From positions 62,001-126,000 of the forward strand of contig NZ_AOMO01000024.1 in assembly GCF_000338875.1 (NCBI RefSeq): 64,000 nt of DNA. The letters run 5' to 3'. Every line of letters begins with the position of its first letter. Position 1 is the first letter of the stretch. The stretch comes from Vibrio mimicus CAIM 602 (GTDB lineage: Bacteria > Pseudomonadota > Gammaproteobacteria > Enterobacterales > Vibrionaceae). Below, one piece after another: positions 1-26,285 of this stretch. The notes beneath the pieces were generated by a model, which was not told where the DNA came from, ran no database searches, and saw only the letters and a program-made list of their open reading frames with translations. The position numbers were made by a program, and so were the translations under genes.

Positions 1-1
1 A

Positions 2-2284: not shown

Positions 2285-2394
2285 CTTAATTAGGTGTGGT
2301 ACAAATGTATAGCGAGTGAATTATTTTTGCTATTTAAGTGAAACATCGCATGAATTAATTTTAGCTCATCAGTTAATGACTTATGAGCGAGTAA

Positions 2395-2835
2395 ATGATT
2401 AACCAGCTAACAAACTTTCATTTAATTAAAAACAATCTTCAAGCAAATAATAAAAAAGAACTTTTTGAAGAGTTAGCACAAATGTTATTGGAAAATAATC
2501 GCATCAATAACAAAGAAGCTTTCTTAATCGACCTTGAGGCGCGTGAAGCTATGAGCGTGACTTCTATGGACGGTATTGCGTACCCACATTCAAAAAGCAA
2601 AGCGGTCACAGAGCCAGCCATCGCGGTTGGTGTTAAGCGTGATGGGATTGATTATGGCGATGAAGAGGGAATCAAGCCCACTGTATTTTTCATGATTGCC
2701 TCTCCAGATAATGGCGCAGACCATCATATTTATGTTCTTCAAGAGTTATTCGGGAAATTCAGTGATGAATTCATTGAAGATATTCAAGATGCAAAAAACG
2801 AGAACGAAATACTAAATATTTTAATTCATTCATAA
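2395..2835 (+). CDS. PTS fructose/mannose-type EIIA
   Basis: A free-standing cytoplasmic EIIA of the fructose (EIIA-2) family, 146 residues, the usual size of one domain. It takes phosphate from HPr (or an HPr-like protein) onto His65 in AYPHSKS and hands it to an EIIB cysteine. It is separated by 11 bases from the EIICB gene and surely shares its transcript, so the pair makes one complete permease. The sugar cannot be read from sequence; nearby mannosidases and manA suggest mannose or a related hexose. The upstream bases are GAGCGAG, a modest ribosome site. It resembles the EIIA parts of the two other permeases in the window (same PHAKS/PHSKS block). Confidence 0.9.
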   Translation: MINQLTNFHLIKNNLQANNKKELFEELAQMLLENNRINNKEAFLIDLEAREAMSVTSMDGIAYPHSKSKAVTEPAIAVGVKRDGIDYGDEEGIKPTVFFMIASPDNGADHHIYVLQELFGKFSDEFIEDIQDAKNENEILNILIHS

Positions 2836-2846
2836 GGTGTGAAATT

Positions 2847-4250
2847 ATGAGTACCCTAACAGCTCAAACTACGAATAATAGTAGCGACTTCAAAAAATTA
2901 TTAAGTTCCATGAAGGGCCACCTTTTATTTGGTACTTCTCACATGCTTCCATTTATCGTTGCCGGTGGTGTATTGCTTGCTTTAGCAGTCATGGCGTCAG
3001 GTAAAGGTGCGGTTCCTGCTGATGGTTTATTAGCTGATATTTCAAATATCGGCATTAAAGGTCTGGTGTTGTTCCCGATTATTCTTGGTGGTTTCATTGG
3101 TTATTCGATTGCCGATAAACCTGCACTCGCTCCCGCGATGATCTCTTCTGGCATCATGGCCGATATGGGCGGCGGCTTCCTTGGCTGTATCGTCGCAGGT
3201 TTCATCGCAGGTGGTGTGGTATTCCAACTTAAGAAAATTCCTCTTTCTGCCAACATGGCCGCACTGGGCGCGTACTTCATCTATCCACTTGTGGGTACGA
3301 TCATCTCAGCCGGTATCGTCCTATGGGGTATTGGTGAGCCAATCAAGATTTTCATGGCATCGATGAACGAATTCCTCGCTTCAATGGCAGGTGCTTCTAA
3401 AGTGGTGCTCGGTACCATTCTTGGGGGGATGACTGCGTTTGATATGGGCGGCCCTATCAATAAAGTGGCAACCTTATTTGCTCAAACTCAAGTGGATACT
3501 CAACCATGGTTAATGGGTGGTGTGGGTATCGCTATCTGTACGCCTCCTCTAGGCATGGCGCTTGCCACTTTCCTATTCAAGAAGAAGTTCACTAAAGAAG
3601 AGCAAGAAGCCGGTAAAGCAGCTGCCATCATGGGTTCTATCGGTATCTCTGAAGGTGCAATCCCATTTGCTGCAAATGACCCGATGCGCGTGCTTCCTTC
3701 AATTGTTGCTGGTGGTATCGTCGGCTGTGTGTTCGGTTTCCTAACTAACATTCTGCTCCACGCACCATGGGGGGGGTTAATTACAGCCCCGGTATCAAGC
3801 AACATCCCAATGTATGTGGTGGGTATCGCGCTAGGCTCTATAACCACGGCACTTATCGTTGGATTCTGGAAACCCGTAGTAGTGGAAGATCCTGAAGCAA
3901 ACATGGAAGAATCAGCTCCCGCACAAGTTCAAACCGCCCCTGTCGCTGGCGAAGGTGAGTACGACATCGTAGCGGTAACCTGCTGCCCATCAGGTGTAGC
4001 GCACACCTTCATGGCAGCCAAAGCGCTAGAAAAAGCAGGTGCAGCCGCGGGCCTCAAGATCAAGGTTGAGACTCAAGGCCAAAACGGTATCCAGAATCGC
4101 ATTACAGATTTAGACGTCGCAAACGCGAAGTTGGTCATCTTAGCTCACGACATCCAAGTGAAAGATGCTCATCGCTTTGCCAATGCGAAAGTCATCAAGT
4201 GTTCGACCAAACAGGCAATGAAAAATGCCGCCGAACTTATCCAAGCTTAA
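2847..4250 (+). CDS. PTS fructose/mannose-type EIICB permease
   Basis: Membrane permease of 467 residues. Residues about 20-335 are the fructose-type EIIC channel with GTSHMLPFIVAGG near the start and a GGPINKVATLFAQTQ block in the middle. After a linker rich in Pro, Ala and Glu, residues about 370-467 are EIIB with the phosphorylated cysteine (about Cys380) in VTCCPSGVAHT. The domain order C-B differs from the A-B-C order of the permease at 24325. Its EIIC is strikingly similar to that of the minus-strand permease at 19943-21807, so the two look like paralogues flanking the mannosidase array in opposite orientation. It imports and phosphorylates a sugar together with the EIIA encoded just upstream. 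Confidence 0.92.
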   Translation: MSTLTAQTTNNSSDFKKLLSSMKGHLLFGTSHMLPFIVAGGVLLALAVMASGKGAVPADGLLADISNIGIKGLVLFPIILGGFIGYSIADKPALAPAMISSGIMADMGGGFLGCIVAGFIAGGVVFQLKKIPLSANMAALGAYFIYPLVGTIISAGIVLWGIGEPIKIFMASMNEFLASMAGASKVVLGTILGGMTAFDMGGPINKVATLFAQTQVDTQPWLMGGVGIAICTPPLGMALATFLFKKKFTKEEQEAGKAAAIMGSIGISEGAIPFAANDPMRVLPSIVAGGIVGCVFGFLTNILLHAPWGGLITAPVSSNIPMYVVGIALGSITTALIVGFWKPVVVEDPEANMEESAPAQVQTAPVAGEGEYDIVAVTCCPSGVAHTFMAAKALEKAGAAAGLKIKVETQGQNGIQNRITDLDVANAKLVILAHDIQVKDAHRFANAKVIKCSTKQAMKNAAELIQA

Positions 4251-4267: not shown

Positions 4268-4296
4268 AGAGCCCTTCCCCCAAGGGCTCTCTTTTA
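4268..4296 (+). terminator. Rho-independent terminator after EIICB
   Basis: Nine-base-pair stem AGAGCCCTT/AAGGGCTCT with a five-C loop, followed by CTTTT and a further T-run. It separates the PTS transcript from the mannosidase array, so the array probably has its own promoter in 4297-4366. Confidence 0.9.
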
Positions 4297-4366: not shown

Positions 4367-7096
4367 ATGAGACTCAAACCTTCCCTACTCGCTTGCACAG
4401 CCCTTAGTGGCCTAATTGTTCTGACTGGTTGTAATGAAGAAACCATCAGTAACAACACAGAACAAGGTCTAAACATGGGTGTCCATAAACCCGTCGATTT
4501 CGACGATATGAACATCACACGTTATGTAAATCCCTTTATCGGGACAGGCAATCTAGGTAACACATACCCCGGCGCAACCACTCCTCACGGTATGGTTCAG
4601 CTTTCGCCCAATAACGGTGCGAATGGTTGGGAGTACATTTCTGGTTATTACTATCATGATTCAAGAATGGCCGGTTTCTCTCATACCCATCTTTCCGGTG
4701 CTGGTGCTGGCGACTTAAACGACATTCTAGTGATGCCCATTAACTCCCGATCGGATTACCTGCTTAACGAAGGTTCAGCAACCCTCAACCTTGAAGCTTC
4801 TCGTTTCAAACATCGCGATGAGCAAGCGACAGCAGGTTACTACAAAGTGGATTTGCTGGACTATGGCATCACGGCTGAGCTCACAGCCTCTGATCGTGTT
4901 GGCGTCCACCGCTATACCTTCCCTCGTGATAAAAAGTCAGAAATCATCGTCAATACGGGCTTCAAAGTTAACTGGGATTACACCTCAGATTCTTACTTGA
5001 AATGGGACAAAGAAAACAACCGGTTAGAAGGCCACCGATTCTCTGATGGCTGGGCACCAAGTCAAAAAGAATTCTTTGTCATGGAATTCAACCAGCCGAT
5101 CAAAAATGTCCGTTTTTCTTATTACGATAAAGAGCAAGAACGCTACTTAGATGTACCTGAAGGCATAACAGAAATCGGGAATGAGACGCTCGGGAAATAC
5201 CAATATGCTCGTGCCTATGTAGAATTTGATACTAAAAATAGTGGCCTAGTTGTTGAAGCTAAACTGGCGCTCTCGAACGTAGAAATCGGTCAAGATGGCG
5301 AATCAGGCGCTTCATTGAACATGACCGAAGTGGCTGACATGAACTTTGACCAAGTTCGCCAAGCGGCAACAAAAAAATGGGAAGACGAACTCGGTAAGAT
5401 CGAAGTCTCTGGTGACGAAGCTGACAAGCAAACCTTCTACACCGCGATGTACCATGCTTATTTAGGCCAAACCATTCACTCTGACTTAGATGGTCGTTAC
5501 CGGCAAGTTCATCAGGGCCGTAACGCCTACCCAGATGGCAATACGCCTTGGGGCGAGAAGATTGATACGCTAAAAGAATCAATCCGCACTGCCGATGCCA
5601 ACAAAGATGGCGTCACTGACTTCACTCGCTACGATACTTTTTCACTGTGGGATACCTACCGAGCAGTACAACCTCTGTCTTCTATTTTGGAACCAGACCG
5701 TCTCGCGGATGTTGTGCTTTCGATGCTTTCTTACGCGGAAGAAGAATGGATCGATGACAAAGGAGCCGTACGCAAAGGTCGCCTGCCTGAATGGACATTC
5801 AAAGGCAACGAGACAGGCATGATGATGGGCATGCATTCCACAACGGTGATTCACGATGTCCTATCCAAGGGCTCCTTGGAAAAACGGATGTACGACCTAG
5901 GCTTCAGTGATGCTGATCGTCAAGACATTAAACAACGTTTAGTGGAAGCGATGATCACCGATGCACGCGCAGCAACAAGCCAAGGCGTTGCTTGGATCAA
6001 AGAGTACGAAGAGCAAGGTTACGTGCCAGCACAATTGCACGATACCCCGCCTGATTCATACGGAGCGCACTCCCCATTTAAAGACTCTTGGACCGCCTCT
6101 TACTCGCTTGAATATTCGATGAATGATTGGGCAATCGCGCAATCTATTAAGGAAGTGTTTGGTGAAAGCGATCCTCGTTATACCGAGTTCGCCAACCGCT
6201 CTAAAAACTGGCAGGCACAGTTCGACTTTGGAGGAGATGAGTACAAAGGTTGGTTCAAAGCTCGCGATTATAACGGGGAGTTCATCAATTCTGGCTGGGT
6301 GGATCCAATCACAGGTCGTACCTTAGATAAGGACTGGCGTCCCGATATGTTCAACTGGGCGTTTTCAGAGTCCAACGGCTGGCAATACTCGTTCAGTGTT
6401 CAGCACGATATTCATAGTTTGATTGACTTGATGACGCGCTTCAACAAAACACAGAATTCAGATGCAAAACGCGGCGAACTGTTCGCAGCTCGTTTAGATG
6501 AATATTGGTCAACCTACCCAGATCGCAATGCAGGCGATAATCAATTCCCCGTATTCAACACGGGTAACGTGGGTCAACACGTACAAGGTAACGAGCCAGA
6601 CATCCACGTTCCCTACCTTTACAACTACGTAGGTCAACCTTGGAAAGGCCAAGCCGCAATCGCAGAAGCAACAAACATTTGCTACAAAAACACCGCGGAT
6701 GGCATTTGTGGCAACGATGATTTCGGTACCCTCTCTGCGTGGTTCGTATTTAGGGCTCTTGGCTTCTACCCGGTAAATGCCTCTTCTGGCATCTACGAGA
6801 TCGGCACACCTTTATTTGAAAGTGCGTCGATTAATGTCGGCAACAACCAGACGTTCACAATAAAGGCGAAAAACGTCAGCCGCGAAAACATCTTCATCCA
6901 ATCGGCTCGCTTCAATGGCAAGCTTTTTAACCGCACCTATCTGACCCATGACGAAATCATGAACGGCGGAGAGCTTGAGTTCACCATGGGCGAACAACCC
7001 AATGAACGTTGGGGTTCAACGGAACAAGACCTGCCACCAGTACAAGGCATCGGCAAATTCCTACACGAAGACAAGATGCCAGCCGGTTCTCGATAG
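4367..7096 (+). CDS. GH92 alpha-mannosidase lipoprotein 1 (divergent member)
   Basis: Exo-acting, calcium-dependent alpha-mannosidase of glycoside hydrolase family 92, 909 residues. A type II signal peptide ends in LTGC, so Cys22 would be lipidated; the next residue is Asn, not Asp, which favours the outer membrane. The N-terminal beta-sandwich carries YVNPFIGTG and SHTHLSGAGAGD; the catalytic barrel carries Glu668 (SESNGWQ) and Asp785 (GNDDFG), which by position correspond to the catalytic acid and base of the studied Bacteroides enzyme (correspondence from memory). The N- and C-terminal blocks differ from those of the four following genes (GNDDFGTLSAW instead of GNEDVGQMSAW; a polar tail), so it probably has a different linkage or substrate preference. 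An ACAGGAC ribosome site precedes the start. First gene of the array. Confidence 0.92.
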   Translation: MRLKPSLLACTALSGLIVLTGCNEETISNNTEQGLNMGVHKPVDFDDMNITRYVNPFIGTGNLGNTYPGATTPHGMVQLSPNNGANGWEYISGYYYHDSRMAGFSHTHLSGAGAGDLNDILVMPINSRSDYLLNEGSATLNLEASRFKHRDEQATAGYYKVDLLDYGITAELTASDRVGVHRYTFPRDKKSEIIVNTGFKVNWDYTSDSYLKWDKENNRLEGHRFSDGWAPSQKEFFVMEFNQPIKNVRFSYYDKEQERYLDVPEGITEIGNETLGKYQYARAYVEFDTKNSGLVVEAKLALSNVEIGQDGESGASLNMTEVADMNFDQVRQAATKKWEDELGKIEVSGDEADKQTFYTAMYHAYLGQTIHSDLDGRYRQVHQGRNAYPDGNTPWGEKIDTLKESIRTADANKDGVTDFTRYDTFSLWDTYRAVQPLSSILEPDRLADVVLSMLSYAEEEWIDDKGAVRKGRLPEWTFKGNETGMMMGMHSTTVIHDVLSKGSLEKRMYDLGFSDADRQDIKQRLVEAMITDARAATSQGVAWIKEYEEQGYVPAQLHDTPPDSYGAHSPFKDSWTASYSLEYSMNDWAIAQSIKEVFGESDPRYTEFANRSKNWQAQFDFGGDEYKGWFKARDYNGEFINSGWVDPITGRTLDKDWRPDMFNWAFSESNGWQYSFSVQHDIHSLIDLMTRFNKTQNSDAKRGELFAARLDEYWSTYPDRNAGDNQFPVFNTGNVGQHVQGNEPDIHVPYLYNYVGQPWKGQAAIAEATNICYKNTADGICGNDDFGTLSAWFVFRALGFYPVNASSGIYEIGTPLFESASINVGNNQTFTIKAKNVSRENIFIQSARFNGKLFNRTYLTHDEIMNGGELEFTMGEQPNERWGSTEQDLPPVQGIGKFLHEDKMPAGSR

Positions 7097-7115
7097 CTCC
7101 TGTACTCACAACCCA

Positions 7116-7142
7116 ATCGGGGGGACACGCATTCCCCCCGAT
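7116..7142 (+). terminator. Intergenic hairpin after GH92-1
   Basis: Perfect 10-bp stem ATCGGGGGGA/TCCCCCCGAT with a seven-base loop, between GH92 genes 1 and 2. No T-run follows, so it may be an mRNA-stabilising or processing hairpin rather than a full terminator. Confidence 0.6.
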
Positions 7143-7170
7143 AACCCCTACACAATAACGAAAAAACGGT

Positions 7171-9588
7171 ATGCACATGTTTAAACGTAATCTTATCTCT
7201 TTGGCTGTCCTAGTGGGTCTGACGGGAAGCTTAACTGGCTGCAAAATCGACAATGAAACGTCTTCTGAACCCAGTGTTGACCTTGCAGTACTGAAATACG
7301 TCGACCCTATGATTGGCACAGCAGATTCCGGTCATACTTTTCCCGGGGCGACCGTACCTGCAGGTATGGTTCAACTGTCTCCCGATACTTTCATCGGTTC
7401 AAACACCGACCACGAATCCGGTCTGAATCCTTGGCATTCAGCTTCTGGTTACTGGGACTCATCCAACTACGATACAGGTGAAGTGGTAAATACAGAGGTT
7501 CCACTTTACGGCTTCTCCCATACCCACCTTTCCGGCACAGGCGCAACCGACCTAGGTGATATTTTGGTCCTGCCATATTCAAACATGGCGGATGCCCAAC
7601 AGAACACTTTCGATAAAGCCAACGAAGAAGCCAGTGCTGGTTACTATAAGACCAAGCTCAACAAGGGTCAGATTGAAGTTGAGCTAACAACGACCAAGCG
7701 CGTTGGTTTACACAAATACGTGTTTGCGAATAGCGCAGATCGTAACGTGAAGTTCGATTTGGGCCATACCCTAATGAACAACAACGGCAAGTCACTAAAT
7801 AACAAAATTGAGGTGGTAGACGACTACACGATTCGTGGCCTCAAAACTTCGACAGGTTGGTTCCAAGGGCAGAATCATCAAGGGCAGAACCTCTTCTTCT
7901 ACGCGAAATTTAACCAACCGATTGCCAAAGCCATGCTGGGCGAGCAAGGCCAAGAACCCACTCGCGAAATTCTCCCAAATGACGTTTACGAAGGAGAAGA
8001 TCTGACTGCTTACCTCAATTTCGGCACGGGTAAGGAGCCCATTGAAATCCGTGTGGGAATCTCTCCAGTGAGTTGGCAAGGCGCGCAGAAAAACTTAGAA
8101 GTGGAAGCTCCAAACTTCGACCTCGCAAAAGTGAAAAAAGAGGCGGAATACGCGTGGGCTGAGAAGCTAGCGAAGATCAAAGTGGAAGGCGGCACAGACG
8201 CAGAGAAAACCAACTTCTACACTGGTATGTACCACATGATGATCGCACCAATTGAATTTTACGATGTAGATGGTCAGTACGTGGATATGCTTGGCACCGT
8301 TCGCAAGTTAAAAGATGGCGACACACCAAACTATTCTATCTACTCAACGTGGGATACGTTCCGCGCGGTTCACCCAATGTGGACCATCATAGATCCAAAC
8401 CAAGCAACACTGTACGTCAAAGATTTAATTCGTAAATCCAACGACGAGTTCGGTCTATTACCTAAGTGGGAAGGCCATGGTTCAGAAACAGGCACCATGA
8501 TTGGCTACCCATCGGCAGCAATTCTGGGCGATGCGGTGACCAAAGGTTTGATTTACGCAGAAGAAGCCTATACCGCATCGGTAAAATCGGCACACTACAC
8601 GCCGCAAGAGTACCCACAGATTCATGATGACATTCTAAGTTCGCTCATGGCGGGTCAGTTGAAATACCACGAGAAAGAACAGTGCGTGCGCTACCCGAAC
8701 TGGAACTCAGTGTCGTACTCGCTGGAACTCTCATTCTATGACTGGACCATCGCTGAAATGGCGAAAGCCGCCGGTCATATGGATGCTTACGAAACGTTCA
8801 AAACACGTTCTTATCATTCGCTTAAACACTGGGATGCAAAAGCAGGCAATGCAGACGGCAAGGGTTTCTTCGTACCAACGGAGCTGAAAGAAGATGACCC
8901 ATGTGCACTGAAATACGCTTCTTCAGACTTCGATCCCTACAAATCAGATGCGTTCTACTACACCGAAGGCAACGCGTGGCAGTGGCAATGGTCATTCATG
9001 CAAGACTTAGACAAGCTGACGGAAATCATGGGCGGCACACAAGGTCTGAACGACAAGTTAAACAACCTATTCAATGCAGATCCAAATGCTGGTGAAGCAC
9101 ACCAAGACATGACGGGCTACATCGGACAGTACATTCACGGAAACGAGCCATCGCACCACGTGATCTATTTGTACAACCGTACCAAAGAGTCATACAAGGT
9201 GCAGGAATACCTAGACCAAGTCTACGACCAGTTCTACAAGCCAACGCCAGACGGCATCATAGGTAATGAAGACGTCGGCCAAATGTCGGCTTGGTACTTA
9301 ATGTCGGCACTGGGCTTCTACCAAATCTCGCCAACCGATCCAACTTACAGCATAGGTCGTCCAATCTTCGACAAAGCGACGGTAAACATTGGCTCTGGCA
9401 CCTTCACGATAACCGCTGAAAACAACGGCCCAGACAACCTATACATCAAAGAAGTGACCATCAATGGAAAACCTTTGGATGTGTACAACACCTTCCAGCA
9501 CAGCGAATTCAAAGCAGGCGGTGAACTGCATTTCGTTATGACTGCGGACAAGTCTGAAGCAATGAAAGCCAATCTAAGCAAATCATAA
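7171..9588 (+). CDS. GH92 alpha-mannosidase lipoprotein 2
   Basis: Family 92 alpha-mannosidase, 805 residues. The signal peptide ends in LTGC (Cys24 from the first ATG; a second ATG at 7177 is an equally possible start), giving an outer-membrane lipoprotein (next residue Lys). Recognisable blocks in order: YVDPMIGTADSGHTFPGA, FSHTHLSGTGATDLGD, Glu599 in YTEGNAWQW, HGNEPSHH, and Asp701 in GNEDVGQMSAW. The candidate acid and base are both intact. The protein ends in GGELHFVMTADKSEAMKA, almost the same as GH92-3. Its role would be release of terminal mannose from mannan or N-glycans. The gap to gene 1 is 74 bases. Confidence 0.94.
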   Translation: MHMFKRNLISLAVLVGLTGSLTGCKIDNETSSEPSVDLAVLKYVDPMIGTADSGHTFPGATVPAGMVQLSPDTFIGSNTDHESGLNPWHSASGYWDSSNYDTGEVVNTEVPLYGFSHTHLSGTGATDLGDILVLPYSNMADAQQNTFDKANEEASAGYYKTKLNKGQIEVELTTTKRVGLHKYVFANSADRNVKFDLGHTLMNNNGKSLNNKIEVVDDYTIRGLKTSTGWFQGQNHQGQNLFFYAKFNQPIAKAMLGEQGQEPTREILPNDVYEGEDLTAYLNFGTGKEPIEIRVGISPVSWQGAQKNLEVEAPNFDLAKVKKEAEYAWAEKLAKIKVEGGTDAEKTNFYTGMYHMMIAPIEFYDVDGQYVDMLGTVRKLKDGDTPNYSIYSTWDTFRAVHPMWTIIDPNQATLYVKDLIRKSNDEFGLLPKWEGHGSETGTMIGYPSAAILGDAVTKGLIYAEEAYTASVKSAHYTPQEYPQIHDDILSSLMAGQLKYHEKEQCVRYPNWNSVSYSLELSFYDWTIAEMAKAAGHMDAYETFKTRSYHSLKHWDAKAGNADGKGFFVPTELKEDDPCALKYASSDFDPYKSDAFYYTEGNAWQWQWSFMQDLDKLTEIMGGTQGLNDKLNNLFNADPNAGEAHQDMTGYIGQYIHGNEPSHHVIYLYNRTKESYKVQEYLDQVYDQFYKPTPDGIIGNEDVGQMSAWYLMSALGFYQISPTDPTYSIGRPIFDKATVNIGSGTFTITAENNGPDNLYIKEVTINGKPLDVYNTFQHSEFKAGGELHFVMTADKSEAMKANLSKS

Positions 9589-9593
9589 AGTTA

Positions 9594-9615
9594 GGGGACC
9601 TCGTGTCCCCTTTTT
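9594..9615 (+). terminator. Terminator-like hairpin after GH92-2
   Basis: Six-base-pair GGGGAC/GTCCCC stem with a five-base loop and five T directly after it. GH92-3 starts only 15 bases further on, so it would act as a partial terminator inside the array unless GH92-3 has its own promoter. Confidence 0.75.
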
Positions 9616-9630
9616 CGTGGAATAAAAACA

Positions 9631-12336
9631 ATGAAACTGAAAAGAACCCTACTCGCTACTTCCTTGCTATTTGCAATGCTTGCTCTTCCCGGATGTAACA
9701 TCGACTCTGACTCGGAAACACCCGTTATTTCTACCCCAACTTTGGATTATGTGGATACGTTGATCGGCACAAAGGGGCTTGGCAACGTTAATCCCTCCCC
9801 TGTCATGCCTGAAGGCATGATTCAACCTTCGCCAGATAACTTTGACCCAAGTGGTTGGGAAGGCAAAGGATCTCCTGTCGAATACGATCCTGTTCATAGC
9901 CTCCTTTCTGGCTTCTCCATGACCCACATTTCTGGTGCAGGTAAAGGCGACTTGAACGACTTCGCCTTCTTGCCATACACAGGCTCCAACACCAATCCAG
10001 TCACCATGGATAAAAGCGCTGAAGTGGCGAAAGTGGGTTATTACGCTGTAGAGCTTGTCGAAACAGGCGTGAAGGCAGAACTGTCCGCAACAGACCGTGT
10101 GGCGTTCCAACGTTACACCTTCAAACCGGATGAGGATCGTAAACTCCGTATCGACCTTCAACACGAGCTTTTAGAGCAATACGGAAACCACTCGCGCAGC
10201 ATCTACTACAAACGCGTGGATGACACCACTGTCGTGGGCGCTCGTACCTCAAATGAATGGGGTCAATGGCAAACCGTGTTTTTCGCGGCTCAATTTTCTG
10301 ACCCAATTATCGAAGAGGATCTGTACACCAAGCTCGCTTCAGAAAGCACATTGACACAGACCGATGCAACCGAAGTCGGCTTGGAAGATTACCGGGGTTA
10401 TGCGGAACATAACCCAATGTCGGGCGAGCCTGAGCCTGATCCAGAACGTTTGGCCAAACGCGCAAATGATGTTCTTACTCATTTGAACTTTGGTCAGAGC
10501 AACGAGCCGTTGATCGTCAAAGTCGCGATTTCTGGCACTGGGGTTGAAGGAGCACTGAAAAATTTAGCCGCAGACACTAACGGTTGGGACTTCGACAAAG
10601 TCGTGCAACAAAACCGCATTGCATGGCAAAACATCCTTGGTGAGTTTGAACTGGAAGGTGGAACCAAAGCTGACAAAACCCTGTTCTACACCTCGCTATA
10701 CCGCACCTTTATTGCGCCATTCCTCTATCAAGATGTGGACGGGAAATACCGTGGCATGGATGGCAAAGTACACCAAGCGGAAGATGGACTAGTGAACTAC
10801 TCGGTTTACTCCATGTGGGACACCTTCCGCGCGGCTCACCCTCTGAAAACCATTATCAACAAAGACCGTGCCATTGAACATGCGCGCGACCTTCTCAACA
10901 AGTACCAAATCGGCGGCGTACTGCCGAAATGGGAACTGCATTCTGAGTACACTGGTGAAATGGTTGGTCACCCAGCCATCTCTGTGATTGCGGACATCAT
11001 GGTCAAACATCCTGAAGCCTTCACTGCTGCAGAGTTTGACTTGGCGTTAAACGCGGCGGATGAAACGGCCAACTTCAATCTGGATAAAACCGAAAGCTGG
11101 GTGCCTTACCAAGACGCTTGGAACGGCGATAAACGCTTTACGGTAATGACTCGTCACAACAACTACCAAGAAGACGTCGGCTTTATTCCTGCCAATACCA
11201 AATGGGCACCCGATTCCAGTGACAAACCAGGTTACGTGGAAGGCTTGAAGATTGATAAATACGACGAGCTGGTGAACGAATCCGTTTCTTACGGTCTGGA
11301 GAACGCTTACTACGACTGGTGCATCGCACAAATCGCCAGGCTCGCAGGCAATGATCAACAGTACGATCGTTACATGGCACGTTCTGAATCATTCAAAAAC
11401 TACTTCGACTACAACCCTAAACAATACGGCAAGCTGCAAGACACTAAAGGCAAAGCATTAGGTGCGACGGGCTTTATGCGCCCGGCTTACATGAACAGCG
11501 GAACTAAGGTTTGGGCAAACAACCTCAAAGCAGAATGTTTAGATGACAACATGGCGCTCACTATCCCCGACGGTATGGATTACAACGCCTGTAAAGACCG
11601 TAAAGCACTGAACGAAAGCGACGCGTTCTGGCCTTACCGCGCCGAGCACCGAGGCGAAGACTTCACCGAAGGCAACACATGGCAATGGACATGGTTTGCA
11701 CCGCACAACCTAAATGGCCTTGCTAACGTAATGGGCGGTAAACACATCGACCGTACCGATTTCACTCTTCCTGAAGCACTAACCGAGCAAGGCAAAACTG
11801 CGTTTCTAGCGAACTTAAACGCACTGTTTAATGCCAACTCCAACGCGGATACCAGCCAATCACACGACATGTCAGGCTATATCGGTCAATTCGTGATGGG
11901 TAACGAGCCCGATCACCACGTGCCTTACCTATACAACTGGACGGCCGAACCGTGGAGGACACAAGAAGTGCTTAGCCACGCGATGAGTGAGTTCTACCAC
12001 CCCACTCATGAAGGCCTGATTGGTAATGAAGACGTCGGTCAAATGTCGGCGTGGTACGTCATGTCAGCTCTGGGCTTCTACCAAGTTACCCCAGGTGATG
12101 CAACGTACACCATAGGTCGCCCTTTGTTCGACAAGGCCATCATTCCTGTCGATGGCGGCAAGTTCACCATCACCTCGGAAAACAACAGCCCAAAGAACAT
12201 CTACGTGAAGTCGGCAACCATCAACGGCAAACCGCTAGGTAGCCACTTCAGCTTCGCACACAGCGAATTGAAAGACGGTGGTGAACTGCACTTCGTGATG
12301 ACGGCTGACAAGTCTGAAGCGATGAAAGCGCAGTGA
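9631..12336 (+). CDS. GH92 alpha-mannosidase lipoprotein 3 (long form)
   Basis: Family 92 alpha-mannosidase, 901 residues, about 90 longer than its neighbours 2, 4 and 5. The signal peptide ends in LPGC (Cys22, then Asn). Extra residues are seen around 230-280 and in a cysteine-containing segment before the catalytic glutamate. Glu680 (FTEGNTWQW) and Asp801 (GNEDVGQMSAW) are kept. The usual FSHTHLSG block reads FSMTHISG, losing the first His, and QLSPDT reads QPSPDN, so substrate recognition near the N-terminal domain may differ. The C-terminal 200 residues are nearly those of genes 2 and 4. Transcribed with the array; its start is preceded by GTGGAA. Confidence 0.93.
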   Translation: MKLKRTLLATSLLFAMLALPGCNIDSDSETPVISTPTLDYVDTLIGTKGLGNVNPSPVMPEGMIQPSPDNFDPSGWEGKGSPVEYDPVHSLLSGFSMTHISGAGKGDLNDFAFLPYTGSNTNPVTMDKSAEVAKVGYYAVELVETGVKAELSATDRVAFQRYTFKPDEDRKLRIDLQHELLEQYGNHSRSIYYKRVDDTTVVGARTSNEWGQWQTVFFAAQFSDPIIEEDLYTKLASESTLTQTDATEVGLEDYRGYAEHNPMSGEPEPDPERLAKRANDVLTHLNFGQSNEPLIVKVAISGTGVEGALKNLAADTNGWDFDKVVQQNRIAWQNILGEFELEGGTKADKTLFYTSLYRTFIAPFLYQDVDGKYRGMDGKVHQAEDGLVNYSVYSMWDTFRAAHPLKTIINKDRAIEHARDLLNKYQIGGVLPKWELHSEYTGEMVGHPAISVIADIMVKHPEAFTAAEFDLALNAADETANFNLDKTESWVPYQDAWNGDKRFTVMTRHNNYQEDVGFIPANTKWAPDSSDKPGYVEGLKIDKYDELVNESVSYGLENAYYDWCIAQIARLAGNDQQYDRYMARSESFKNYFDYNPKQYGKLQDTKGKALGATGFMRPAYMNSGTKVWANNLKAECLDDNMALTIPDGMDYNACKDRKALNESDAFWPYRAEHRGEDFTEGNTWQWTWFAPHNLNGLANVMGGKHIDRTDFTLPEALTEQGKTAFLANLNALFNANSNADTSQSHDMSGYIGQFVMGNEPDHHVPYLYNWTAEPWRTQEVLSHAMSEFYHPTHEGLIGNEDVGQMSAWYVMSALGFYQVTPGDATYTIGRPLFDKAIIPVDGGKFTITSENNSPKNIYVKSATINGKPLGSHFSFAHSELKDGGELHFVMTADKSEAMKAQ

Positions 12337-12357
12337 ACAACAGGAATCCAAATACTA

Positions 12358-12378
12358 AAGGGGCAACCTCAACCCCTT
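12358..12378 (+). terminator. Intergenic hairpin after GH92-3
   Basis: AAGGGG/CCCCTT stem with a nine-base loop, followed by CTTTCT. This is a weak terminator or an mRNA hairpin, at the same relative place as the other hairpins of the array. Confidence 0.5.
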
Positions 12379-12414
12379 CTTTCTGTAGAAACTTAACTTC
12401 TGTGGAACCATAAA

Positions 12415-14865
12415 ATGAAACTCAAAAGCCCACTTATCCCTACCGCTATTCTCACTGCTATTTTTGGTCTTGCAGGCTGTAACATTGACGACGACAAGCC
12501 CGGATCCCCCGCCCTCAATACGTCATTGACCCAGTACGTCAATCCACTGATTGGTACTGGCGCAGATGGTCACACCTTCCCCGGCGCAGTTGTGCCTTAC
12601 GGTTTGGTGCAACTTTCACCGGATACTGAAATGGAAGGCTGGGGCTCAGCCGCCGGCTATTTTGACCACGGCAAGCTCACCGAAATCCCAGTTTACGGTT
12701 TTTCCCACACTCACCTTTCTGGTACAGGCATTGCTGACCTTGGCGACATTTTAGTTCTGCCTTTTACTAAGAAAGAACACGCCATCTTCAACACCTTCGA
12801 TAAAGAAAACGAAACGGCTGAAGCAGGCTACTACTCCGTGGAACTCAACAAAGGTGAAATCAAGGCAGAGCTAACCACAACGCAACGTGTTGGCTTTCAT
12901 CGCTACACCTTTAAAGAAGGTACCACACCGCACATTAAGTTCGACCTAGACCACACCCTTAATAAAGGTCATTTAAACAACCGTACCATGAAGGGTGATC
13001 TTGAGTTCATCGACGCATACACCATTCGTGGTTTGCGCAGTTCAAACGGCTGGGCGAACAATCAACACATTTATTTCTACGCAACCTTCAACCAACCTAT
13101 CATGAAGGCGATGGCTTTGGTTGATGATGCTGAAACAGAAATCGATGTGAACAATGACAATATCGATGCCATTAAAACCATTGCATACCTAGAGTTTGCG
13201 CCATCCTCGACGCCGCTAGAAATCCAAGTTGGCTTGTCTCCAACAGGTACAGAAGGTGCGCAAAAAAACCTAGAAGCGGAAGCGAAGAATGTGTCGTTTG
13301 ACACGACACGTGCACAAGCGAACGACGCTTGGCAACAAGAGTTGAGTCGAATATTGGTGTCTGGTGGTACAGAAGATCAGAAAGAGATCTTCTACACCGC
13401 GCTTTACCATGCCTCCATCGCACCAATGATTTTCCAAGACGTGGACGGTCAATACCCAGCAATGCGCACTCGCATTCAAAAAGACGCGGGCAATACACCA
13501 AACTTCTCCGTGTATTCCATGTGGGATACCTTCCGTGCAGCGCATCCACTGAAAACCATCATTGATCCAGAGCGTGCGAAAGCATTCGCTAACGACCTAA
13601 TTCGCAAATACCAAGATGGCGGCATCCTACCGAAATGGGAATTACACAGCCATTACACAGGAACCATGATTGGTTTCCCGGCAGTGTCGATCATTGCTGA
13701 TGCAATGGCGAAAGGTTTGGACATCGACTCGCAACAGGCCAAAGAGGCGGCGGAGTTTACCGTCCGTTACCATGAAACCTCTGAATTTCCAGACTGGACT
13801 GAAGATAACAACATTGGCGCTGCAAACGTGTTGCAAGTGGAGGCATACCAAGAGAATGGCTTTGTGCACCACGGCTACTGGAACAGTGCATCTTACTCCC
13901 TTGAGTTCGCTTATGGTGACTGGGCAATGTCTGAAATCGCACGCATGGCGGGCGATGTGAAGTTGCAAGAAGAGTTCCTGACCCGCTCAAAGAACTGGCT
14001 CAATCATTGGGATGCGAAAACCGGATTCTTACGTCCGAAGAACCACCCTCTTAGTTCATCGCCAAACAAGCCACCATTGGAATTTAATAGACCCGTTGAT
14101 GAAGACCGTTTGGATGAGTGCGTGATGATTGAGTGGCCGGAAGGCTCTGGCGAGAAGAAGGAGAAATGTCCCCTACTGCCATTTGACCCTTACTACGTAG
14201 ATGAATTTGCCTACACAGAAGGGAACGCATGGCAATGGAAATTCCAGCCAATGCACGATTTCAACCGATTAAAAGAAGAGATCTACAAAGCCGATTTAGT
14301 ACAAGGCAAAGACACCACACCAGAAAAAGCCTTTCGCGAAGATTTGGATGAATTATTCAATGCACGCTCATCGAATACAGGTGAAGAGCTGCCAGATCTA
14401 ACGGGTTACATAGGCCAATACATGCATGGTAACGAACCGTCGCACCATATTCCTTACCTCTATACACTGACGGATGAACCTTGGAAAACACAAGAGTATC
14501 TCGACCGCATCATGTCTGAAATGTACACCATAGAACCAACAGGTTTAATTGGTAACGAAGACGTGGGTCAGATGAGTTCGTGGTACGTGATGTCAGCGAT
14601 GGGCTTCTACCAAGTCACTCCTGGTGACGCCACTTACACCGTTGGCCGACCTATGTTCGATGAAGTCACCATTCCAGTGGCAGACGGCGAATTTAAAGTC
14701 ATCGCCGATAACAACAGCCCGCATCATAAGTATGTGAAGTCCGTAACCATTAACGGCCAACCACTCGACAAAAACTTTACTTTCAAACACAGCGAAATCA
14801 GAGCCGGTGGCGTGCTGCACTTCGTGATGACCGGCGACAAGCAAGAGGCACTCCCCGCCGATTGA
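12415..14865 (+). CDS. GH92 alpha-mannosidase lipoprotein 4
   Basis: Family 92 alpha-mannosidase, 816 residues. The signal peptide ends in LAGC (Cys22, then Asn), pointing to the outer membrane. Blocks in order: YVNPLIGTGADGHTFPGA, FSHTHLSGTGIADLGD, a stretch around 550-590 with Cys and acidic residues not seen in gene 2, Glu602 in YTEGNAWQW, HGNEPSHH, and Asp716 in GNEDVGQMSSW. Both candidate catalytic residues are intact. The tail is GGVLHFVMTGDKQEA. Closest by eye to genes 2 and 5. It would remove terminal mannose outside the cytoplasm; linkage cannot be read from sequence. Confidence 0.94.
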   Translation: MKLKSPLIPTAILTAIFGLAGCNIDDDKPGSPALNTSLTQYVNPLIGTGADGHTFPGAVVPYGLVQLSPDTEMEGWGSAAGYFDHGKLTEIPVYGFSHTHLSGTGIADLGDILVLPFTKKEHAIFNTFDKENETAEAGYYSVELNKGEIKAELTTTQRVGFHRYTFKEGTTPHIKFDLDHTLNKGHLNNRTMKGDLEFIDAYTIRGLRSSNGWANNQHIYFYATFNQPIMKAMALVDDAETEIDVNNDNIDAIKTIAYLEFAPSSTPLEIQVGLSPTGTEGAQKNLEAEAKNVSFDTTRAQANDAWQQELSRILVSGGTEDQKEIFYTALYHASIAPMIFQDVDGQYPAMRTRIQKDAGNTPNFSVYSMWDTFRAAHPLKTIIDPERAKAFANDLIRKYQDGGILPKWELHSHYTGTMIGFPAVSIIADAMAKGLDIDSQQAKEAAEFTVRYHETSEFPDWTEDNNIGAANVLQVEAYQENGFVHHGYWNSASYSLEFAYGDWAMSEIARMAGDVKLQEEFLTRSKNWLNHWDAKTGFLRPKNHPLSSSPNKPPLEFNRPVDEDRLDECVMIEWPEGSGEKKEKCPLLPFDPYYVDEFAYTEGNAWQWKFQPMHDFNRLKEEIYKADLVQGKDTTPEKAFREDLDELFNARSSNTGEELPDLTGYIGQYMHGNEPSHHIPYLYTLTDEPWKTQEYLDRIMSEMYTIEPTGLIGNEDVGQMSSWYVMSAMGFYQVTPGDATYTVGRPMFDEVTIPVADGEFKVIADNNSPHHKYVKSVTINGQPLDKNFTFKHSEIRAGGVLHFVMTGDKQEALPAD

Positions 14866-14915
14866 TTTGGAATTATCGCATTTCTGCCACCTAGCACTTA
14901 GGCACCAATGCAACT

Positions 14916-14934
14916 GGGGAGTCATAGGCTCCCC
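14916..14934 (+). terminator. Intergenic hairpin after GH92-4
   Basis: GGGGAG/CTCCCC stem with a seven-base loop in the gap before GH92-5; no T-run follows. Probably an mRNA hairpin rather than a stop signal. The GH92-5 ribosome site AAGGAG lies just after it. Confidence 0.45.
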
Positions 14935-14953
14935 CTAATAAGGAGTCAACATA

Positions 14954-17410
14954 ATGAAATTAACAAAAACCTGTATCTCAATAGCGGTCAGCGCAAGCGT
15001 GTTTGGCCTCACTGGTTGTAACGTTGAAGATGATTCCTCAGCCGTCGATACCAGCGTTCTAAAATACGTAAACCCATTTATCGGTACTGGCTTTAACGGC
15101 CATACCTTCCCAGGCCCTGTTGTACCAGAAGGCATGGTGCAACTTTCTCCGGATACTGAACTGATTGGCTGGCACTCTTCTTCCGGTTACCACTTCGATA
15201 AAACAACCTTATTTGGCTTCTCTCATACCCACCTTTCTGGCACAGGTATGGGAGGTTTAGGTGATATTCTGTTCCTGCCATTTACTGAAGACAAATCGAA
15301 ATACATTGAAGACAGTGACGACTATCGCAAAGCGATTGCAGTCAAAATGGACAAAACATCCGAGGTTTCGGAGCCAGGATATTATTCGGTGACGATCGAA
15401 GAAAACGGCATCAAAGCAGAGTTGACGGCATCAGAGCGCGTTGGTTTTCACCGCTACACGTATCCGCAAGGCCAACCACAGCGGTTAAAGATCGACCTAA
15501 ACTCCATCCTCAACAGTGATTGGGGCGCCACTTCCCTACGCAACAAGCTAACGATTAGCGAAGATGGTTACAGCGTGACAGGTGAGCGTGATGCCGCGCA
15601 CTTTTCTGGCTGGGCAAAAAATCAAAGAATCTTCTTTTATGCAACGTTCGATAAGAAGATTAAAGATGTCTACATTCTCTCCAATGGCAAACCAGTGGAC
15701 GGCTTGACTGCAGAACACATCGGTGACCCGAGCAAACGCATCAAAGCTGACGTAACCGCGTATATTGAGTTTGAAGATGAGGGCACACCACTACTCAACG
15801 CTCAAGTTGCGTTATCTGCCGTCGATCCACAAGGGGCGATAAACAACCATGATGCAGAAGCAAATATCTCATTCGATACTGCGAGAAACAACGCCCGTAC
15901 GAAATGGAAGAATGCGCTGAACTTCTCTATCGAGGGGGGGACAGAAGATCAGAAAAAAATCTTTTTCACCGCGCTCTACCACACCAAGATTGCCCCTATT
16001 GTTCACCAAGATGTGGATGGTCGATTCCGTGGCATGGGTAAAGGCTCAATTCAAAATGGCGAAGGTGAATACGCCATCGCTTACGGCCAAGCGACAGAAG
16101 CACAACCAAACTTCTCAGTCTTTTCATTATGGGATACCCAACGCGCATTGCATCCGCTAAAAACCATTACCGAGCCCACTCGTGCCATCCAATATGCGAA
16201 GAGCCTTGTGCAGAAGTACACCGAAAGTGGTTTGCTTCCGAAATGGGAGCATTTAGGCGATGAAACAGGCACCATGGTGGGCTACCCTGCAACCACCATC
16301 ATTGCGGATGCGCTCACTAAATACCCAGAGGAATTTACCCAAGAAGAAAAAGAACTGGCGCTGAAAGCCGCCATCGATTCCTCCACTTACGATAACTACG
16401 CAGCACTGCAAACTGAGTGGGATCCGGACGTATTGGACCGAACCCTAACCAAGCACATCGATTACATCGAAAAGTATGGTTTTGCGCCTGCGGTTCAGCG
16501 AATCGATGGAGAACCTGTGTTTGAAGACTATACGTTGGAATCGGTATCGTATGGCTTAGAAAACGCGTTCTACGATTGGGCCATCGCACAAATTGCAAAA
16601 GCTGCGGGCGATACTCAAACCGAAGAAAAATACCTCAAGCGTTCAAAAGGCTATCAAAAGTATTTCGATTACAACCCAGCCGAATATGCTGAGCATGGTG
16701 TCACGGGCTTTATGCGCCCGGTGATGATTGACAAGACCTTTATGACACCATTCGATCCCTACGGTACGGAGCACGAAACGGGCAACTATACCGAAGGGAA
16801 TGCATGGCAATGGACGTGGTTTGTGCCCCATGACATCGTGGGCTTGAAGCACATCATGGGTGGCGAAGCGCAGTTCCTGAAGAACTTAGAAGCTACCTTC
16901 ACTGCCGAAAGCCAAGGCAGCGAAACACCCGACATGTCCGGCTTGATTGGCCAAGTAGCTTTTGGGAACGAACCTTCACACCATATCCCTTACTTATATA
17001 ACTGGACAGCGGAACCATGGAAAACCCAAGAAGTGGTCGATCACATTCTTGATGATATGTACTTGGCAACACCAGCAGGCGTGGTTGGCAATGAAGATGT
17101 CGGTGCTATGTCGGCGTGGTACATAATGTCTTCACTCGGTTTTTACCAAGTGAATGCCGCAGAGCCTACCTACACAATCGGTCGTCCTCTGTTTGATAAA
17201 GCGGTTATTCCGGTGAAAGGCGGCAAGTTCACCATCACAACGGAAAACAATGCCGATGACAATATGTACATTAAGTCTGTCACCATTAACGGTAAAGCAT
17301 TGGAAAATGGTTTGTTCTTCCATCATTCGGAGTTTATACCGGGTGGCGAGCTGCACTTTGTCATGACGGGCAATCAATCTGAAGCGATGAAAGCTAACCT
17401 AAGCAAATAG
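14954..17410 (+). CDS. GH92 alpha-mannosidase lipoprotein 5
   Basis: Family 92 alpha-mannosidase, 818 residues, last of the array. The signal peptide ends in LTGC (Cys22, then Asn). Blocks in order: YVNPFIGTGFNGHTFPG, FSHTHLSGTGMGGLGD, Glu614 in YTEGNAWQW, FGNEPSHH (Phe replaces the usual His), and Asp715 in GNEDVGAMSAW. The candidate acid and base are kept. The C-terminus GGELHFVMTGNQSEAMKA matches genes 2 and 3 closely, a sign of duplication. A good AAGGAG ribosome site lies 8 bases upstream of the ATG, better than in the other copies. Confidence 0.94.
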   Translation: MKLTKTCISIAVSASVFGLTGCNVEDDSSAVDTSVLKYVNPFIGTGFNGHTFPGPVVPEGMVQLSPDTELIGWHSSSGYHFDKTTLFGFSHTHLSGTGMGGLGDILFLPFTEDKSKYIEDSDDYRKAIAVKMDKTSEVSEPGYYSVTIEENGIKAELTASERVGFHRYTYPQGQPQRLKIDLNSILNSDWGATSLRNKLTISEDGYSVTGERDAAHFSGWAKNQRIFFYATFDKKIKDVYILSNGKPVDGLTAEHIGDPSKRIKADVTAYIEFEDEGTPLLNAQVALSAVDPQGAINNHDAEANISFDTARNNARTKWKNALNFSIEGGTEDQKKIFFTALYHTKIAPIVHQDVDGRFRGMGKGSIQNGEGEYAIAYGQATEAQPNFSVFSLWDTQRALHPLKTITEPTRAIQYAKSLVQKYTESGLLPKWEHLGDETGTMVGYPATTIIADALTKYPEEFTQEEKELALKAAIDSSTYDNYAALQTEWDPDVLDRTLTKHIDYIEKYGFAPAVQRIDGEPVFEDYTLESVSYGLENAFYDWAIAQIAKAAGDTQTEEKYLKRSKGYQKYFDYNPAEYAEHGVTGFMRPVMIDKTFMTPFDPYGTEHETGNYTEGNAWQWTWFVPHDIVGLKHIMGGEAQFLKNLEATFTAESQGSETPDMSGLIGQVAFGNEPSHHIPYLYNWTAEPWKTQEVVDHILDDMYLATPAGVVGNEDVGAMSAWYIMSSLGFYQVNAAEPTYTIGRPLFDKAVIPVKGGKFTITTENNADDNMYIKSVTINGKALENGLFFHHSEFIPGGELHFVMTGNQSEAMKANLSK

Positions 17411-17415
17411 TGATT

Positions 17416-17442
17416 GGGGGGAATGTATATCTCCCCCTTTTT
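17416..17442 (+). terminator. Terminator at the end of the GH92 array
   Basis: A G-rich strand pairs with TCCCCC across a short A/T loop, followed by five T. It lies six bases after the GH92-5 stop and closes the array. Confidence 0.8.
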
Positions 17443-17522
17443 AAAAGATCGGTATTTTTTACTCAGGTTTCCACCATCTCTCACTTTAGTACCACGAAGC
17501 TACTTGGGCATTACCCATCCCA

Positions 17523-19942: not shown

Positions 19943-21807
19943 CTACCGTTTCATCTGTACCAAGGCAGCGGCGTTTAAAATCGCATCTTTCGTTGTGACG
20001 TCGATGACCTTGATGTGTTTGAAGCGTTCGGGTTCTTTGATCGCAACATCATGCGCGAAAATCACTCGTTTCGCCCGTTGTACATCTTTGGCAGTAATAC
20101 GGTTAATGATGCCGTTGGCACCTTGGTTTCCACTTTGATTTTTACCCCAAGTAAGCAAGCGGCTTTTTCTAATGATTTGGCTGCCAAGAAAGTGTGCGCG
20201 ACACCAGAAGGGCAAGAGGTCACGGCCAGAATTTCGGCTTGCCCTTCCCCAACCACCGATGTAAACGCGAGTGAATCTCCCTGCTGGTTTTCCTGTTCAT
20301 TCACCGTTTTCTTGAGGGCAATAACAATCAGCGCGGTGGTTAATGCTCCCGCCAAAGTACCGAGAATGTAACCGAGTTTGCCATCAATCACCGGAAGCAC
20401 AATCCAACCGCCCCAAGGCGCATGGTTGAGCACCTGAAAGAGAAAACCAATCACGTTACCAACGATGCCACCAATAATGGCTGCGGGCAGTACACGAGCG
20501 GGATCGGCAGAGGCAAACGGAATCGCTCCTTCGCTAATGCCAATCATGCCCATAATGCCCGCCGCTTTGCCCGCTTCACGTTCATCACGTTTGAATTTAC
20601 TGGGTGAAAGAAAGGTAGCCAGCGCCATACCAAGCGGCGGAGTGCAAATGGCGATGCCGACACCACCCATCAACCAAGGTTGAGTATTCACTTGAGTTTG
20701 TGCGAACAGTGTAGCCACTTTGTTGATGGGCCCACCCAAATCAAATGCCGTCATTGCGCCGAGCACAGCGCCCAAAGCCACCTTACCAGAATCGGCCATT
20801 GAGGCCAGAAACTGATTGAGCCACAACATGCTGCTAGCAAGCGGTGAACCAATCAACCACATAATTGCACTGCAGGTGATAAAGGTGCCGACCAATGGAT
20901 AAATAAATATAGACCCAAGCGAACTCATACTGTCTGGCAGCTCAATTTTTTTGAGCTGGCGAACCACAAAACCCGCAAAAAAACCAACGATGATCGCTCC
21001 AAGAAAACCAGTGTGGTACTGGTTTACCGCAATCCAAGTCCCAATCATTCCCGGCGCTAAACCCGGTTTATCCGCCATGGAATAAGCGATGTAGCCACCC
21101 AACACCACAGTAAACAGCGTTAAACCTGCAATGCCCATTTGGGCGATATCGGCCAACATACCACTTTCAGGAACTGCGCCATGACCAGAGATCATGACCG
21201 AAAGGGAAAGCAGCACCCCACCAGCAACGATAAACGGCATCATGTGAGATGTACCAAACAGCAAATGCTCTTTGATGCGAGCCAACCTTTGCGCTATCGG
21301 GCTTAGCGGCTGGTACTCCATCTCACCATTTCCATGTAAGTCACTGAGGTTAGAGTGTTTGGGATCAACAAAGAGTGCTCTCACCTGCTCAACATCTTCT
21401 GCGGCTTTGAGCTGTTCAACAAAACCATCTTCAATCCATTTACTGGAGATTTGTGCCAACACTTCGATGTGGTGATGGTCTTCCCCATCGGGTGATGCAA
21501 GCATAAAAAACACATCAGAAAGTAGGCCATCTTCTGCACCGTAGTCGATCCCTTGACGACTAATTCCTATTACCACGGCAGGTAAAGCAACGGCTGTACT
21601 TTTGGCGTGTGGAATTGCAATGCCCTCTTCAAACCCTGTGTTACCAATCTCTTCCCTCTGCCAAACATCTTTTAAAAACTGCTGCTTATCAGTGAGCTTT
21701 CCTGCTTTATCAAGCAAATCAACCAGTTCAATAAGAATCTCTTCTTTGCTACTGGCTTTTAGCTCTAAACAGATGAGTTCAGGTTCGATCAGATTGGTAA
21801 TATCCAC
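19943..21807 (-). pseudogene. PTS fructose/mannose-type EIIA-C-B, frameshifted in EIIB
   Basis: A three-domain permease of about 620 residues if the frame is repaired. EIIA (residues 1-150, His67 in AIPHAKS) is followed by EIIC (about 185-490, GTSHMMPFIVAGG, GGPINKVATLFAQTQ) and EIIB (Cys532 in VTSCPSGVAHT). In EIIB the frame breaks after KIKVET: the mRNA-sense sequence reads ACCAAGG where ACCCAAGG would give V-E-T-Q-G-A-N-G and continue in the downstream frame to the stop at 19943. One base is therefore missing near 20125-20126. As read, the protein ends early at 20062 with an altered tail and an incomplete EIIB, so it may not phosphorylate sugar unless the gap is a sequencing error. Paralogue of the EIICB at 2847. 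Confidence 0.85.
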
Positions 21808-22033
21808 GATTGCTTTACCTTGCGATTATTTTGCGTTGCATTGTCGTCCATAGACCTCGCGCGCGAGTAGGCTAGAGTAACGAGCGAAGCACTTTCAAAA
21901 CATAGGACTAAAAATGCAATCGCTGGATTAATGTAACATCCGTTTTGAACTGTGAAGTGTGTCTTTAGTGAAGGCAAAATATTTACTAACCGCTGTGCTA
22001 CTATCGCGGCAAAAGTTACAACGAGGCATTCCC

Positions 22034-26269: not shown

Positions 26270-26285
26270 TCTGATGGTGACTAAG

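Follow-up and report, generated by a model that had tools for sequence, protein, structure and literature searches.

How does a Vibrio come to carry five genes of glycoside hydrolase family 92 (GH92) in a row, and which pathway do their products serve? The use of alpha-mannan has been described mainly for the SusCD systems of Bacteroidota, and the array that raises the question lies in Vibrio mimicus CAIM 602, in a stretch of 64,000 nucleotides (the window) that is part of contig C24 (NZ_AOMO01000024.1) of a 4.32 Mb genome. The best overall explanation, which we regard as probable, is that five exo-alpha-mannosidases feed a mannose phosphotransferase system (PTS) under the control of the regulator ManR. 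The enzyme family is an ordinary one, found here in an unusual and recurrent setting in which gammaproteobacterial exo-alpha-mannosidases are tied to a fructose-family mannose PTS and not to SusCD. The five genes are these:

4367..7096, plus strand: GH92-1, 909 residues, lipoprotein, of a lineage apart from GH92-2 to GH92-5
7171..9588, plus strand: GH92-2, 805 residues, lipoprotein
9631..12336, plus strand: GH92-3, 901 residues, probable lipoprotein (LPGC), with Lys and Glu in the +1 region
12415..14865, plus strand: GH92-4, 816 residues, lipoprotein
14954..17410, plus strand: GH92-5, 818 residues, lipoprotein

Each is a full-length open reading frame (ORF) whose product matched both the N-terminal domain of the family (PF17678, E 5.9e-49 to 8.8e-72) and its catalytic domain (PF07971, E 1.3e-124 to 4.3e-141) over cut-off, and all five scored above the cut-off of TIGR01180, which confirms the five consecutive same-strand GH92 genes described in an initial annotation of the sequence. 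PF07971 gave exactly five matches in the whole genome, all between 4367 and 17410, making the array its complete GH92 set. The proteins were aligned with five solved GH92 sequences and their residues numbered as for BT3130 in PMC5930347 (this and the other papers given by PMC number are cited from part of their text). The general acid Glu (E535) and general base Asp (D637), a pair that the initial annotation had put forward as candidates, are kept in all five proteins, as are D353, W390 and M400 of the -1 subsite; among the orthologue rows the acid is present in 110 of 112 (the others having a gap and an X) and the base likewise in 110 of 112 (the others having Asn and X). Family and catalytic residues are in this way established. 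The genes are under purifying selection, with dN/dS values of 0.024-0.061 against other genomes (15 comparisons, one alone for GH92-1), and orthologues in V. harveyi, V. jasicida, V. owensii and V. diabolicus are 87-91% identical.

On both sides of the array lie genes of a sugar-uptake block:

2395..2835, plus strand: PTS EIIA, fructose family, VC1820 position (PF00359, E 8.8e-33; gene order)
2847..4250, plus strand: PTS EIIBC, fructose family, VC1821/FdgA position (TIGR01427 and TIGR00829 above cut-off)
20062..21807, minus strand: PTS EIIA-EIIC-EIIB, VC1822 position (domains, gene order)
21959..22333, plus strand: PTS EIIB, VC1823 position (TIGR00829 above cut-off; PF02302)
22342..23121, plus strand: EIIA-like regulator, VC1824 position (PF00359, E 2.2e-14)
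23113..23952, minus strand: AraC-type regulator, ManR, VC1825 position (PF12833; gene order)
24232..26223, plus strand: ManP, PTS EIIABC, VC1826 position (EIIA, EIIB and EIIC domains in order)
26274..27506, plus strand: ManA, mannose-6-phosphate isomerase, VC1827 position (TIGR00218 above cut-off)

The block runs EIIA-EIIBC-[five GH92 genes, EamA, MocR]-EIIACB-EIIB-EIIA-ManR-ManP-ManA, with EamA on the minus and MocR on the plus strand; the mechanical start of manP is a TTG, and the true start probably lies further downstream. In V. cholerae, VC1820-VC1827 encode EIIA, EIIBC, EIIABC, EIIB, an EIIA-like protein, ManR, ManP and ManA, and all eight go up on mannose or fructose in wild-type cells, whereas a manR mutant shows no such rise; ManR there responds to mannose 6-phosphate, and its sites share AATCC (PMC9392796). 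The array thus sits inside the counterpart of the V. cholerae ManR regulon, and the PTS genes were kept in all four GH92-free stretches of relatives examined (L095, L096, L097 and L100); together these findings support the PTS uptake of mannose that the initial annotation had proposed.

From this setting we infer the following course of events. The products of the five genes would be calcium-dependent exo-alpha-mannosidases of the inverting type, tethered as lipoproteins with the outer membrane as the most likely site. Each would take terminal mannose off a different kind of alpha-mannoside, and none by means of the known alpha-1,2 triad. Mannose-rich sugars would be trimmed outside the inner membrane and the freed mannose then imported. 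By analogy with V. cholerae, mannose would cross the inner membrane through ManP, arriving as mannose 6-phosphate for ManA to isomerise, and ManR with mannose 6-phosphate bound would switch the block on. A hairpin with a weak T-run behind the EIIA-EIIBC operon would let some transcripts continue into the GH92 genes, giving a feed-forward loop. Since mannose and ManR affect biofilm in V. cholerae (PMC9392796), the enzymes might instead serve to reshape biofilm or a mannose-containing polysaccharide made by the cell itself, and not to feed on foreign glycans; with the array inside a catabolic block that includes ManA, and no polysaccharide synthesis gene among the annotated window genes up to 33.5 kb, we give this idea hardly any credence.

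The pairing of GH92 with these PTS genes recurs among relatives. Counting this genome, 48 of the family's 329 genomes have GH92 genes (among the matches listed), and Photobacterium, Grimontia, Enterovibrio, Aeromonas and Endozoicomonas share these paralogues, so uniqueness of the array to this genome was rejected. The genus has 19 GH92-bearing genomes, the present one among them, and in 18 of these a listed GH92 match has an EIIBC relative no more than about 4 kb away, a distance to be taken as an upper bound given that at most four GH92 matches were listed for most genomes; among the matches listed, 14 of these relatives are at least 90% identical to the EIIBC of the window and four 72-74%. 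The place of EIIBC in the remaining genome (G246) falls outside the matches listed, and G128 has a partial GH92 match and an EIIBC with an internal stop. The GH92-free L096 has 57 bases between EIIBC and EamA in place of the array, with EamA, MocR and the rest ordered as in the window; L097 is without GH92, EamA and MocR, L095 and L100 have a different gene order, and L098 carries GH92-1, -2 and -3 at the array position. Other arrangements of PTS genes with GH92 occur in Aeromonas (L017-L019), Grimontia and Enterovibrio (L012, L029, L038 and L102) and Endozoicomonas (L030).

Some of these neighbourhoods have features of their own. Directly before GH92-2 in Grimontia (L012:2336-4825) lies a gene for a fused HPr-EI-EIIA phosphotransfer protein, and in Enterovibrio (L102:18587-19900) the EI-EIIA part is seen, the remainder being beyond the end of the stretch; such a fusion is possibly a dedicated PTS energy source for the mannosidase cluster. 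Two kinds of EIIBC occur within Photobacterium: among the matches listed, that of P. sanctipauli (L011/G073) is 91% identical to the window's and those of four other genomes of the genus (g9) 90-92%, and those of P. malacitanum (G062) and others about 77%, the high-identity kind having perhaps arrived by transfer from Vibrio. An IpgD-type, effector-like phosphatase gene adjoins GH92 genes in an uncultured Oceanospirillales metagenome-assembled genome (MAG; L028:15145-17355). A search of a plasmid collection returned one record, covering 4% of the query.

How, then, might transcription reach the array? The features that bear on this are:

2300..2318, plus strand: candidate (variant) ManR site before EIIA, a conserved block of the upstream alignment with a single match in the window
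4268..4290, plus strand: hairpin behind EIIBC, common to GH92-free genomes, its T-run weak where GH92 follows
17416..17436, plus strand: terminator-like hairpin after the array
21922..21935, minus strand: candidate ManR site before EIIB, TACATTAATCCAGC, containing AATCC, one mismatch to the pattern
24053..24066, plus strand: ManR-like pattern between manR and manP, exact match
24227..24240, plus strand: candidate ManR site 2, core TGTCC, overlapping the TTG start of manP, exact match

The hairpin behind EIIBC was present in all four GH92-free genomes first compared and, being common to such genomes, either predates the array or persisted after the array was lost. Five or more T follow it in none of the 19 GH92-bearing genomes, against 21 of the 39 GH92-free genomes that have the hairpin (of 44 chosen, the majority from the head of the list of EIIBC relatives, five without a hairpin by our rule were left out). 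With one row per distinct tail the counts are 0/11 against 16/33 (Fisher test, 0.003), and for the hand-picked AGAGCCC-type hairpin alone 0/7 against 7/13 (0.044); four of the 19 GH92-bearing genomes have a hairpin of a different sequence. The V. diabolicus stretch (L013) has, in this same position after the hairpin, a GH92-2 body that carries a leader of the GH92-1 type, so the start there has been kept though another enzyme follows. These data suggest read-through past the EIIBC hairpin, and this is the route to GH92 that we favour. Scans of the window found 14 promoters against 22.9 in shuffled sequence and 17 terminators against 19.2; as they do no better than shuffles, the case for the hairpin rests on the comparison between genomes.

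It could also be argued that these are true mannosidases with a ManR-independent promoter of their own, their place in the mannose block being merely inherited, and the hairpin between EIIBC and GH92-1, the want of a ManR-like site before GH92-1 and the further hairpins inside the array would all suit that account. We consider it unlikely, because every one of the 19 genomes with GH92 behind the hairpin has a weak T-run, GH92 stands beside PTS genes repeatedly and in differing gene orders, and the V. diabolicus fusion occupies the same spot. The internal hairpins are G+C-rich folds in all five spacers behind the GH92 genes (7097-17522; assessed without a shuffle control); most relatives' GH92 spacers also form hairpins, of different sequence (exception, L012:12485-12512), and staggered expression or mRNA protection is a possible role.

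The explanation that the array feeds a ManR-controlled mannose PTS has several points to contend with. With one mismatch allowed, the ManR pattern matched seven times in the window against 3.0 expected, and 3 of 100 shuffles reached seven, so that only the two exact matches and their position carry weight; these have GGTCC and TGTCC cores, and AATCC is absent from both. The pattern for the EIIA site was built from that site itself and is no independent evidence, and bare AATCC is found, too, some 270 bases ahead of EIIA and in the spacer that separates GH92-3 from GH92-4, as expected of a 5-mer. No ManR-like site was found in the 116 bases before GH92-1, where there is also a hairpin with a short T-run, and co-regulation is therefore not established. 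The T-run counts are uncorrected for descent, nine of the GH92-bearing genomes share one tail, and G128 holds just a GH92 remnant. ManP scored over cut-off with fructose-family models, its nearest full-length model (the mannosylglycerate PTS) stays below its own cut-off, and its presumed mannose specificity is read from position alone. EIIBC relatives at E<=1e-60, of widely varied identity, occur in 262 of 329 genomes and PTS genes without GH92 are common in the family (both among the matches listed); window-type PTS genes were not seen in the fetched stretches L020-L028, L032, L034-L036 and L043 (Photobacterium, Aliivibrio, two Enterovibrio MAGs and an Oceanospirillales MAG), where most other ORFs are unannotated. 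Finally, no GH76 or GH85 was found, and it is hard to see how the enzymes would reach polymers or glycans bound to protein.

Where would the enzymes act, and on what? The lipobox Cys is at residue 22, 24, 22, 22 and 22 in GH92-1 to -5, as the initial annotation had placed it; the lipobox is an ordinary one in four, and in GH92-3 it is LPGC, which falls outside the motif used. Among orthologues, a lipobox falls within the first 60 residues in 12/18, 14/14, 20/21, 25/25 and 22/29 rows in the same order, some rows being cut at locus ends. A residue other than Asp after the lipoprotein Cys fits outer-membrane sorting, and in the window proteins it is Asn or Lys, never Asp. The proteins are most likely lipoprotein-anchored in the outer membrane; surface exposure need not follow, and the initial claim that all trimming is done outside goes further than this. 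The absence of SusCD was upheld, with no SusD match (PF07980) in the genome, where a control matched in a Bacteroides, and eight TonB plug matches (PF07715), none of them on contig C24. The genome likewise gave no match to GH76, GH38, GH85 or GH125 (the control rang in each search), so GH92 would work on chain ends alone, and long or protein-bound glycans would need other help.

As to linkage, BT3130 is the nearest solved structure for each of the five proteins (phmmer), and identities are 35-40% to BT3130, 32-36% to BT3965 and 28-32% to the alpha-1,2 pair BT3990/BT2199. Alpha-1,2 cleavage has been tied to a Trp88/His584/Glu585 triad (BT3990 numbering; PMC10167667, PMC9522356). This triad is absent from all five, which have Gly at the Trp88 column and never His at the His584 column, the nearest approach being in GH92-4 and -5, where the Glu585 column, part of a gapped loop, does contain an isolated Glu. 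Alpha-1,2 cleavage, one of the activities first proposed, was on this ground rejected for all five, other routes to it remaining possible. A shared alpha-1,3 motif was not found in GH92 by PMC9522356, as far as the portion cited goes; Ile in GH92-4 matches BT3965 Ile71 and His-Asp in GH92-3 the BT3965 loop, and all five have Trp where BT3965 has Tyr45.

The +1 subsite is said to set linkage preference in GH92 (PMC5930347), and the BT3130 Ala93 and Cys399 positions lie at or beside it. In orthologue groups of 19, 15, 22, 26 and 30 rows (GH92-1 to -5, window included), the Ala93 position holds Ala in GH92-1 (15/19, the others gaps) and GH92-2 (15/15), Lys in GH92-3 (22/22), Ile in GH92-4 (26/26) and Met in GH92-5 (30/30); the Cys399 position holds Met, Thr, Glu, Thr and Thr, every row alike, and the 580-loop is group-specific too (His-Asp in 18 of 22 GH92-3 rows, for example). 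GH92-3 stands out in having Lys (22/22) and Glu (22/22) where the other compared sequences carry Ala, Cys, Ile or Met and Cys, Thr or Met. Because each paralogue keeps its own signature across genera, the five are likely to differ in specificity, and the signatures, taken with the low dN/dS values, point to different functions that have been maintained. The idea that they divide linkages between them is to that extent supported by distinct +1 signatures; with Thr shared at the Cys399 position by GH92-2, -4 and -5 and Ala at the Ala93 position by GH92-1 and -2, five separate linkages, alpha-1,2 among them, go beyond the evidence, and the signatures give no linkage readout. Given the missing triad, capped Man9 glycans or yeast mannan appear less likely substrates than mannosides ended by alpha-1,3, -1,4 or -1,6 linkages.

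Could the target be the sulfated alpha-mannan of diatoms, with a sulfatase and GH92 acting together as in Polaribacter (PMC13063451)? A sulfatase gene ends at 1334 with an anaerobic sulfatase maturase about 4 kb upstream of it, and all five enzymes fall on the BT3130 side, PbGH92_1 being an alpha-1,3 enzyme (PMC13063451); yet the sulfatase is in two pieces in different frames, and it follows a tripartite tricarboxylate transporter set and not the mannose block. Nor is mannose 6-sulfate known as a PTS substrate, and we judge this target very improbable. The two sulfatase pieces (window 1-1334; L006:17700-19400), which lie behind a LysR gene and the transporter set and may reflect a sequencing error or decay, account for two of the ten sulfatase matches in the genome. 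Further upstream of the window (L006:8079-13868) are a GH31 enzyme, whose tail we take to resemble a GlyGly-CTERM sorting signal, a lipoprotein with a sub-cut-off beta-helix match, and the maturase (TIGR03942 over cut-off).

The origin of the set was read from a tree of 110 of the 198 available rows, made by quick search and with long reference branches (ORFs of at least 620 residues aligned over at least 500 entered the pool, 188 being kept). A single clade (SH-aLRT 100), made up of 54 rows from Gammaproteobacteria, contains GH92-2, -3, -4 and -5, with support of 100 for the groups of GH92-2, -3 and -4 and 99 for the 13-row core of GH92-5, and the groups hold Vibrionaceae plus Aeromonadaceae and/or Endozoicomonadaceae. 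GH92-1 (11 rows, SH-aLRT 100) lies outside this clade, in a set of 18 rows with BT3130 and a B. massiliensis enzyme (SH-aLRT 86), and the comparison with characterised Bacteroides enzymes that the initial annotation proposed sets GH92-1 with BT3130; the long branches make the deep position of the reference enzymes uncertain. As far as the tree goes, four GH92 genes arose by old duplication and one has a separate origin. Recent tandem duplication was rejected, the five proteins being 32-49% identical and each group spanning at least two bacterial families. In the same genus, L099:7287-15848 holds three tandem divergent GH92 copies, 41-42% identical to GH92-5, beside an EIIBC of 73% identity; by sequence this is a separate expansion. 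A tentative and rather doubtful extension would be that one GH92 became four within Gammaproteobacteria, that a fifth of different descent was added to them, that the ManR mannose-PTS regulon captured the set through an eroded EIIA-EIIBC terminator, and that GH92-3 has a specificity new to GH92, perhaps for a charged or substituted mannoside.

The array offers five candidate exo-alpha-mannosidases for the study of specificity, and its value lies also in tying conserved mannosidases to a mannose PTS whose regulator and signal have been worked out in V. cholerae. Compared with known systems, the enzymes resemble those of B. thetaiotaomicron in their domains, acid, base and the -1 residues tested, and differ in the missing triad, in other +1 signatures and in the lack of SusD here. 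The marine Bacteroidota Salegentibacter reportedly has an alpha-mannan locus with GH92 and an endo-enzyme (GH195 or GH76). The alpha-mannan locus of Polaribacter is likewise marine and includes GH92, but its pathway is one of Bacteroidota with an endo-enzyme, GH195 or GH76 (PMC13063451), whereas GH76 and SusD were not found here. In the N-glycan pathway of Streptococcus pneumoniae, which includes GH92, mannose is also trimmed outside before import, although there alpha-1,2 trimming precedes GH85 (PMC10154615) and here there is neither GH85 nor the alpha-1,2 triad. GH92 in V. vulnificus is mentioned in PMC6381281; no published description of the present array was found in the literature searched, most subscription journals being outside its scope. 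The closest likeness is to the V. cholerae ManR regulon, with eight gene kinds in identical order (judged by family and order and not from V. cholerae sequences) and candidate ManR sites of similar core; the difference is that here the GH92 array, EamA and MocR stand between the second and third genes, and no mannosidase is named in the part of PMC9392796 cited. With that precedent, direct tests can be made of substrate, regulation and the proposed change from terminator to read-through.

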